IMG/VR virus record: IMGVR_UViG_3300024529_000013
Location: 1 to 26,669 of that record
DNA: 26,669 nucleotides
Reading direction: 5' to 3' (one strand)
DNA from: a virus
Positions 25,705-26,439 of the stretch are shown one piece after another. The notes below the pieces were generated by a model that ran no database searches, was not told the DNA's origin, and saw only the letters and a program-made list of their open reading frames with translations. A program made the translations under genes and the position numbers. Position 1 is the first letter of the stretch; each line of letters starts with the position of its first letter.

Positions 25705-25998
25705 ATGGAAAATTCAACAAAATTCAGCAAGACACAAGGTCTTATAGACTTTTTAATCTCACAAGGTGCTAACACTTGTAAGATGATGCGTAACCCACAC
25801 ACAGGCAACAGATTCTTTGCCGTGGAGGGTACTGACCTCACAGGACATGTATCCTCTAAGGTCGGTGAAGAACTATCTGCGGACCTACGTGTCTCTTGGA
25901 TAGAAGGAGTAAATCAAAAGGGTGAAGCTTTTGCAATGTACTCCTTGCACCGTCAAGGGTCTTCGGAGAACACCTTGGATACATTCTCTGTACAGTAG
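25705..25998 (+). CDS. 97-aa protein of unknown function, higher G+C than its neighbours
   Basis: A complete small plus-strand gene: MENSTKFSKTQGLIDFLISQ, then KMMRNPHTGNRFFAV, ending ENTLDTFSVQ. I chose the ATG at 25705 because A-rich leader sequence precedes it; an in-frame ATG at 25681 would add 8 residues. The mixed alpha/beta layout with the RNPHTGNRFFAVEGTD segment recalls short phage proteins with no known function. Codons such as GCC GTG GAG, GCG GAC CTA CGT GTC make it visibly richer in G+C than the rest, suggesting strong expression or transfer. It is driven by the promoter at 25615-25644, and its stop codon sits in a hairpin (25986-26005). Confidence 0.75.
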   Translation: MENSTKFSKTQGLIDFLISQGANTCKMMRNPHTGNRFFAVEGTDLTGHVSSKVGEELSADLRVSWIEGVNQKGEAFAMYSLHRQGSSENTLDTFSVQ

Positions 25999-26021: not shown

Positions 26022-26056
26022 TGATTGGTGGAAGGCATTGCTACTTTCACCAATCA
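26022..26056 (+). other. 13-bp hairpin in the structured 3' region
   Basis: TGATTGGTGGAAG pairs with CTTTCACCAATCA (13 bp including one G-T), loop GCATTGCTA. An immediately preceding short hairpin (26004-26016) is AGGGT-GTA-ACCCT. There is no T-run after it, so it is not a typical terminator; it abuts structured element 1. Confidence 0.85.
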
Positions 26057-26059
26057 TTT

Positions 26060-26143
26060 AAACTCTTATCCAATTGCAGGTGATACTCTGAGTAGTATTA
26101 ATTAGCGGAAGCACAAGTCAAGGATTGCAACCTTGTAAGAGTA
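26060..26143 (+). ncRNA. Structured RNA element 1 of a pair, family unknown
   Basis: The element is closed by ACTCTTA (26062-26068) and TAAGAGT (26136-26142). Inside the 5' side is ATCCAATTGCAGG. On the 3' side is a hairpin CAAGG-ATTGCAA-CCTTG (26119-26135), whose loop could pair GCAA with the 5' TTGC (26074-26077), giving a pseudoknot. Between these is another hairpin, TGATACT/AGTATTA. The same ends and 3' hairpin recur in element 2 (26319-26439), with a T-A to C-G compensatory change in the closing stem. I do not recognise it as a known riboswitch, ribozyme or intron core. Confidence 0.7.
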
Positions 26144-26289
26144 CATTATATATTGGGAGTATGTGACCATGAAAGAGGCATACATTTATTAACCTTTCCA
26201 TGTTTGTGTAAACATAGGTAGTTCAGGATAAACTATAAAATCTTAGTCAGGATGTGACGAGCTGAGTACGCAGTATATGAACGTGCCTT

Positions 26290-26318
26290 GCAGAGGAGAG
26301 ATCCATGCTCTGCTTTTT
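26290..26318 (+). terminator. Rho-independent terminator-like hairpin before element 2
   Basis: GCAGAG (26290-26295) pairs with CTCTGC (26308-26313) and is followed by five T's. The stem is 6 bp with a 12-nt loop. It could end the transcript containing the 97-aa gene and element 1, so that element 2 and the HNH gene would need readthrough or another promoter. Confidence 0.65.
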
Positions 26319-26439
26319 ATAAACTCTCATCCAATTGCAGGGATAAATAATATAATTTTATAATACAGTAGGCAATCTGATTCCTCTGGGTTTAAACAAC
26401 TATATCAGGCAAGGGCTAAGCAACCTTGTGAGAGTTTAT
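26319..26439 (+). ncRNA. Structured RNA element 2 of a pair, before the HNH gene
   Basis: Closed by ATAAACTCTCA (26319-26329) and TGAGAGTTTAT (26429-26439), an 11-bp perfect stem. Inside are the same ATCCAATTGCAGG as in element 1 and a 3' hairpin CAAGG-GCTAAGCAA-CCTTG (26410-26428), whose GCAA could again pair with TTGC (26335-26338). The middle part differs (A/T-rich, then CAATCTGATTCC) and is longer by about 35 nt. Conserved ends with a variable middle are the normal look of an RNA family. The HNH gene starts 38 nt downstream. Confidence 0.75.

Follow-up and report, generated by a model that had tools for sequence, protein, structure and literature searches.

Described systems and how element A compares

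crAss-like phages count among the most numerous viruses infecting Bacteroidota, and phage-encoded orphan RNAs are as such not new. GOLLD, ROOL, the stable RNAs C and D of T4 and the RAGATH motifs are orphan structured phage RNAs encoded near tRNA or tmRNA genes or ribozymes; we know of no description of wholesale exchange of an internal domain in any of them. Integron attC sites are imperfect palindromes whose ends are conserved and whose terminal part, 20-100 nt long, varies. In T4-type phages, PeSL cassettes combine an early promoter with a terminator stem-loop (Arbiol 2010, Comeau 2014; cited in PMC4503421).

The element described here, element A, occurs twice in a window of 26,669 nt (IMG/VR record IMGVR_UViG_3300024529_000013, positions 1 to 26,669). 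From 5' to 3' it consists of one strand of a closing stem (P1), a junction TCCAA(TT)GCAGG, an insert, a hairpin P3 (CAAGG-loop-CCTTG) and, without a linker, the 3' strand of P1. P1 has 7 bp and frequently one extra pair, the insert is 31-156 nt long and the whole element measures 74-200 nt. Like GOLLD, ROOL, T4 RNAs C and D and the RAGATH motifs, element A is intergenic, structured and found in phages, but it is far smaller than GOLLD or ROOL. Element A resembles PeSL cassettes in being a short conserved intergenic element located where shuffled phage segments meet, and differs in generally having neither promoter nor terminator, in its covarying junction fold and in the internal position of the exchanged part. 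Conserved ends and a variable part also recall integron attC, whereas the R''/R' core RYYYAAC/GTTRRRY is missing and the variable part is internal and RNA-constrained. With bacterial Y RNAs and tRNA-like RNAs it shares 7 bp and 5 bp helices stacked without a linker, a loop-to-junction contact and a variable module, but it has neither a T-loop nor a CCA end, and a Ro60-like protein is rare among its carriers.

A search of the window against Rfam 15 gave no match at the curated threshold, and the best relaxed matches were implausible and sub-threshold; in the relatives, only tRNA, permuted tmRNA and Hatchet were matched, all outside element A. These searches bear out the view of an earlier note on this DNA that no known riboswitch, ribozyme or intron class is present, while its suggestion of a reduced intron-like element fails, there being no Rfam intron match, too little length and no splice context. 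A group I intron was rejected because Intron_gpI was not matched and the element, at 74-200 nt, lies between ORFs. A tRNA or tmRNA was rejected because the window contains no tRNA by either the ARAGORN or the Rfam criterion and element A has no T-loop and no CCA end. The sequence 3' of P1 is ACNA in about half of the elements and ACCA in 14 of 134; since the nucleotide after AC is not fixed, a tRNA-like CCA end was rejected as well. Hatchet, or any other known self-cleaving ribozyme, was rejected as the identity of the element, the Hatchet matches lying 0.6-0.9 kb from A. A PeSL cassette was rejected because the window copies carry no plus-strand terminator and a T-run follows only 19 of 134 elements, the promoter half of this test being weak because the promoter scan covered sigma-70 only. 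An integron attC site was rejected for want of the RYYYAAC/GTTRRRY core, P1 being ACTCTCA/TGAGAGT or a variant of it in all 134. No paper describing the element A motif in a phage context was found in the literature searched (open-licence papers, no preprints).

Two copies of element A in the window

The DNA of the window represents part of a crAss-like phage genome, as indicated by its capsid gene (PF23898, E 4.5e-28) and by a terminase and a portal of PHROG families. Both copies of element A are real, lie about 180 nt apart within 26060-26439, as the earlier note had proposed, and are accompanied by the following features.

26062..26142, plus strand: element A copy 1 (covariance model R1 match 26061-26143, 72.5 bits, with copy 1 in the training set)
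26062-26068 and 26136-26142: 5' and 3' strands of P1, copy 1
26069-26080: junction of copy 1, TCCAATTGCAGG
26081..26118, plus strand: insert of copy 1, 38 nt
26119-26123 and 26131-26135: P3 of copy 1, with loop ATTGCAA at 26124-26130
26153..26187, plus strand: element D, TTGGGAGTATGTGACCATGAAAGAGGCATACATTT, between both A copies
26290..26319, plus strand: possible intrinsic terminator GCAGAG..CTCTGC-TTTTTA, 3 nt 5' of copy 2, read from the sequence and absent from the consensus-scan output
26323..26435, plus strand: element A copy 2 (covariance model R1 match 26322-26436, 58.6 bits, E 1.3e-10; copy 2 is outside the training alignment and E-values are rough)
26323-26329 and 26429-26435: 5' and 3' strands of P1, copy 2
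26330-26341: junction of copy 2
26342-26409: insert of copy 2, 68 nt
26410-26414 and 26424-26428: P3 of copy 2, with the 9-nt loop GCTAAGCAA at 26415-26423
26478 to contig end: downstream ORF, 64 aa, incomplete at the contig end

Two exact blocks are common to both copies, TCCAATTGCAGG at 26069 and 26330 and GCAACCTTGTRAGAGT at 26127 and 26420, and the hairpins read CAAGG-ATTGCAA-CCTTG in copy 1 and CAAGG-GCTAAGCAA-CCTTG in copy 2. One T-A pair of the closing stem ACTCTTA/TAAGAGT in copy 1 is C-G in that of copy 2, ACTCTCA/TGAGAGT, the single compensatory change to which attention had been drawn. The middle region is variable, again as previously noted: the inserts of 38 and 68 nt are unrelated to each other. 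The folding energy of each copy alone is ordinary (z -0.67 and -1.02), and element A is therefore not detectable from energy alone; the case for it is a comparative one, built on 134 distinct relatives in which P1 covaries. An adjoining HNH gene, part of the original description, was not confirmed, since neither Pfam nor PHROGs yielded an HNH family match for the downstream ORF. Relatives of the gene neighbouring the element in the window were also sought, and none was found.

The family and its constant frame

The first scan used a gapped pattern drawn from the junction and the 3' hairpin only and matched 31 viral contigs; the closing stem is present in 27 of these as well. Among 85,462 species genomes scanned there was no true copy; eight pattern matches were attributed to chance, with P1 or P3 missing. 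The closing stem is missing in all eight, so the search pattern does not itself create the stem. Further scans brought the collection to 170 elements, 134 of them distinct, on 160 viral contigs or loci, a sample biased by the search pattern and uneven in independence among contigs. P1 and the insert were left free in the searches, although the collection filter demanded at least six of seven P1 pairs; parts of the junction and P3 were fixed, and their apparent invariance is thus partly by construction.

The most frequent P1, ACTCTCA/TGAGAGT, is found in 95 of 134 elements, and other variants include TCTCTTA/TAAGAGA, AACTCTA/TAGAGTT, TCTCCTA/TAGGAGA, GTTCTTG/CAAGAAC and GTTCCCG/CGGGAAC. Among 48 aligned members, 99.2% of P1 cells pair and two-sided changes occur at all eight P1 pairs examined (the 7-bp stem and one flanking pair). 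Across 13 pairs of P1 and P3 there are 60 two-sided cells, with far lower values in slid controls, and none of 500 shuffles matched the observed covariation values. The pattern of substitutions thus shows a frame under RNA-level constraint, and the expectation of a functional RNA family with further homologues and compensatory stem changes is borne out by the 134 distinct elements. On this comparative evidence, element A represents a predicted family of small structured RNAs, not listed before, that is carried by crAss-like phages from the environment.

The P3 loop reads RTTGCAA or TGCAA, and its composition depends on the junction. Where the junction has no TT, the loop contains TTGC in 72 of 72 elements; where TT is present, the loop is without TTGC in 24 of 61. 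The combination of a TT-less junction with a TTGC-less loop is consequently 0/72, against 24/61 with TT (Fisher p 4e-10, a value that ignores shared ancestry, the TT indel nonetheless recurring within three insert types), and a dedicated scan for this missing combination found none. It appears that TT may be absent from the junction only where the loop has TTGC, a co-dependence that supports a contact between junction and loop and with it the pseudoknot-type TTGC/GCAA pairing suggested at the outset. We read this as two possible registers of one short helix, TTGC/GCAA or GCAG/TTGC.

Wholesale replacement of inserts

The family contains at least 76 insert types. Forty-seven locus pairs, not all independent where pairs share a phage, have both 80-nt flanks at least 80% identical; 38 of them have identical inserts and nine have unrelated ones. 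Insert identity in these pairs is either exactly 1.0 (38 pairs) or 0.08-0.59 (nine pairs), with nothing between 0.6 and 0.9, while the flanks of the nine differing pairs are 81-100% identical on both sides. In L049/L093 the flanks are 100% and 99% identical and the insert 23%; in L074/L230 the values are 95%, 99% and 8%. The remaining pairs are L110/L133, L133/L237, L110/L237, L030/L154, L109/L151, L151/L244 and L041/L123. Direct alignment shows that L120 and L125 likewise differ in the insert of A and also in that of a second element, B (see below), with the sequence between and around them nearly identical. Conversely, in 90 pairs the same insert type is found at loci with unrelated flanks; that of copy 1 recurs, about 90% alike, in contigs L008, L024, L027, L031, L054 and L068. 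As judged from these comparisons, insert variation is replacement and not drift, and a pressure to diversify may be acting on the inserts.

The inserts fold better than random segments from the same contigs (p 0.002), stems inside them show two-sided changes within types, and the hairpin TGATAC..GTATTA/C of the copy 1 insert covaries. By these measures the inserts are shown to be structured and constrained themselves. Support for a shared basal stem, P2, is partial (10.9 observed vs 9.6 +/- 0.3 in re-paired controls). Comparison of inserts with phage sequences revealed no excess of complementarity or similarity at the level of 14-mers, the sole exception being an unmasked partial A copy in L099, and an antisense or shared-sequence role of the insert was rejected on this ground. 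The feature that we rate as new is an internal RNA domain apparently exchanged inside a constant frame.

Neighbouring RNA families

In crAss-like phages, element A belongs to arrays of RNA modules. Family B lies downstream of A in about 23 independent locus groups and consists of TGCACCA, a hairpin with loop TTCCCAAGG, then CAGTTGTAAT, a variable insert of 34-157 nt and ATTACAACTGAGTGCAGAGGG. Its hairpin occurs as CTCAC/GTGAG, TCTAC/GTAGA, CCTGA/TCAGG, CTAAC/GTTAG and CTTAT/ATAAG. These changes are compensatory, as are those in its insert stem, and B has the same frame-plus-insert design as A; the loci scanned gave no Rfam 15 match for it. Families C and D are smaller. C, often located 3 nt 3' of A, has a stem that varies from GCAG/CTGC to GACG/CGTC, and the stem of D is GTATG/CATAC in the window and GCATG/CATGC in relatives, D being present in five other contigs (L003, L074, L087, L117 and L119).

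L120:8140-8330, L125:8897-9030, L110, L133, L041, L048 and about 40 more: family B
L133:9361, L110:11376, L038, L090:11824 and L023:3435 (positions on the element strand): family C, GAAAGGCAGTGATATTCTGCGTATACCTGAGCATGTAGACAAACTGCTC

Carriers and genomic setting

Crass_capsid scores above cut-off in 32 of 42 element-carrying records, the remainder including short fragments. Cultured carriers are Flavobacterium phages, namely FpV20 and FpV21 of F. psychrophilum and FPSV isolates, in which element A is unannotated and lies in a gap between two genes. It is absent from the cultured phages Fpv1, Fpv2, Fpv3 and FpV4 and is therefore not essential. FpV21 and Fpv1 differ by a 762-nt gain or loss comprising two small ORFs and element A and ending 8 nt past the 3' end of the element, which shows that element A is dispensable and travels with neighbouring genes. 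Covariance-model matches in the gut references crAss001 and DAC15 were dismissed as chance, being inside coding genes on the opposite strand, as was one in crAss002 with the motifs missing.

Most records have one copy, and some have two to four. With a simple ORF caller, the upstream ORF is codirectional in 61 of 68 cases and the downstream ORF in 54 of 59. A stop codon lies 4-14 nt before the 5' end of seven of 61 elements, and an ATG follows the 3' end of 14 of 54 at a distance of 21-53 nt (about 34 nt); no spacing to neighbouring genes is fixed across loci. No conserved partner gene was found beside element A, the neighbour proteins having no common family, and a special association with HNH genes was rejected on the same basis, with one GIY-YIG in 122 neighbour proteins. 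In related phages, element A is often the point where homology begins or ends (47 upstream-only and 33 downstream-only pairs), and among the contigs compared there is no empty site missing element A alone.

Proposed function and alternatives

The reading that we favour, with somewhat less than even confidence, is that element A is a trans-acting phage RNA in which the frame would bind a common partner and the insert would set specificity. Each copy would be a small phage-encoded structured RNA, transcribed as a discrete RNA, and the frame would provide a stable fold recognised by one common partner, such as a host RNA-binding protein, a nuclease or a ribosome-related factor. Specificity would reside in the insert, which might, for example, serve as a decoy or antagonist when the phage faces host defence or a competitor phage, and diversity would then be selected. 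Inserts would probably be exchanged by homologous recombination in co-infected cells, through the constant arms of about 18 and 27 nt that flank them. In favour of this reading are the covariation of P1, the junction/loop co-dependence, the strand bias, the exchange, folding and covariation of inserts and the presence of Crass_capsid in 32 of 42 records; against it count the lack of a partner gene and of insert complementarity, the single copy in most records and the cultured phages that do without the element.

A broader proposal, which we hold more tentatively still, is that crAss-like phages of environmental Bacteroidota possess an RNA cassette system. Its constant frames (A, B and perhaps more) would draw exchangeable structured inserts from a common pool, which for A comprises at least 76 types; recombination would move these inserts between phages, and conflict with hosts or competing phages would maintain their diversity. 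If true, this would be an RNA counterpart of exchangeable protein specificity domains. Replacement of the entire inner domain of a conserved RNA frame, in genomes otherwise nearly identical, would give phages a novel means of varying RNA function, and it points to interactions, so far unseen, with hosts or rival phages. The cultured carriers FpV20 and FpV21 and the natural non-carriers Fpv1 and FpV4, with identical capsid protein, make these ideas directly testable.

Position between codirectional genes, at times close to a stop codon or an ATG, and the T-run after 19 of 134 copies would also suit a cis-acting intercistronic element, that is, a processing site, stabiliser or expression control in a polycistronic phage mRNA with the insert as a tolerant peripheral domain. 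We consider this unlikely, since neither neighbour gene nor spacing is conserved, insert types retain compensatory pairs, and a tolerant domain should drift gradually, whereas matched loci have either the same insert or an unrelated one. A DNA-level recombination joint or mobile cassette, whose conserved ends would serve the shuffling of phage segments in the manner of PeSL or attC, would account for the homology breaks at element A and for the end of the 762-nt difference 8 nt past it. This is distinctly unlikely, as compensatory changes in P1 and inserts, strand bias and junction/loop co-dependence are constraints of the RNA type, and an empty site missing A alone, the RYYYAAC/GTTRRRY core and a promoter consensus are all lacking.

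An improbable candidate is a new self-cleaving ribozyme or RNA-processing element with P1, junction and P3 as its catalytic core and P2 as a free peripheral domain. Such an element would fit the contact between junction and loop, the unpaired nucleotides that do not vary and the peripheral domain that does, and Hatchet occurs in the same RNA-rich stretches of L110, L118 and L133, but P1 is conserved in sequence beyond the needs of a ribozyme stem (ACTCTCA/TGAGAGT in 95 of 134), known ribozymes do not match and co-occurrence with Hatchet is rare (1 of 42 whole records). Element A was rejected as a Y RNA, and a Y-RNA-like scaffold for a phage Ro60-like (TROVE/DUF2828) protein is very improbable. 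Such a scaffold is suggested by the constant end stem with a variable module and by the DUF2828-DUF7788 gene that immediately follows A and B in L090, L120 and L125; these three are, however, one syntenic locus with proteins 81-96% identical, and Ro60-like proteins are rare among carriers, being encoded in 4 of the 45 uncultivated records (TROVE in 2 of 42).

Other structured RNAs and genes near element A

The Ro60-like DUF2828-DUF7788 protein found downstream of A and B (phrog_850) is also encoded in crAss001 at 96903-98219. Upstream of copy 1 in the window, a very stable hairpin at 26022-26056 (TGATTGGTGGAAG..CTTTCACCAATCA, region z -4.68) follows a plus-strand ORF (25706-25998) and is possibly a terminator or another RNA. 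Noncoding stretches dense with stem-closed units occur at L023:490-3030 (about 2.5 kb) and in FpV21 at L166:4100-5900 (about 1.8 kb); L023 has three A copies and a T-arm-like GAGGTTCAACTCCTC, and the element A insert at L033:9033-9151 contains a T-arm-like GTGGTTCAAATCCAC. The Hatchet ribozymes (L118:8591-8727, L110:2899-3036 and L133:968-1104) are on the same strand as A and 0.6-0.9 kb upstream of it. Phage tmRNA is present at L007:6889-7122 and L017:4160-4540, that of L007 matching the permuted tmRNA family and lying 190 nt after A.
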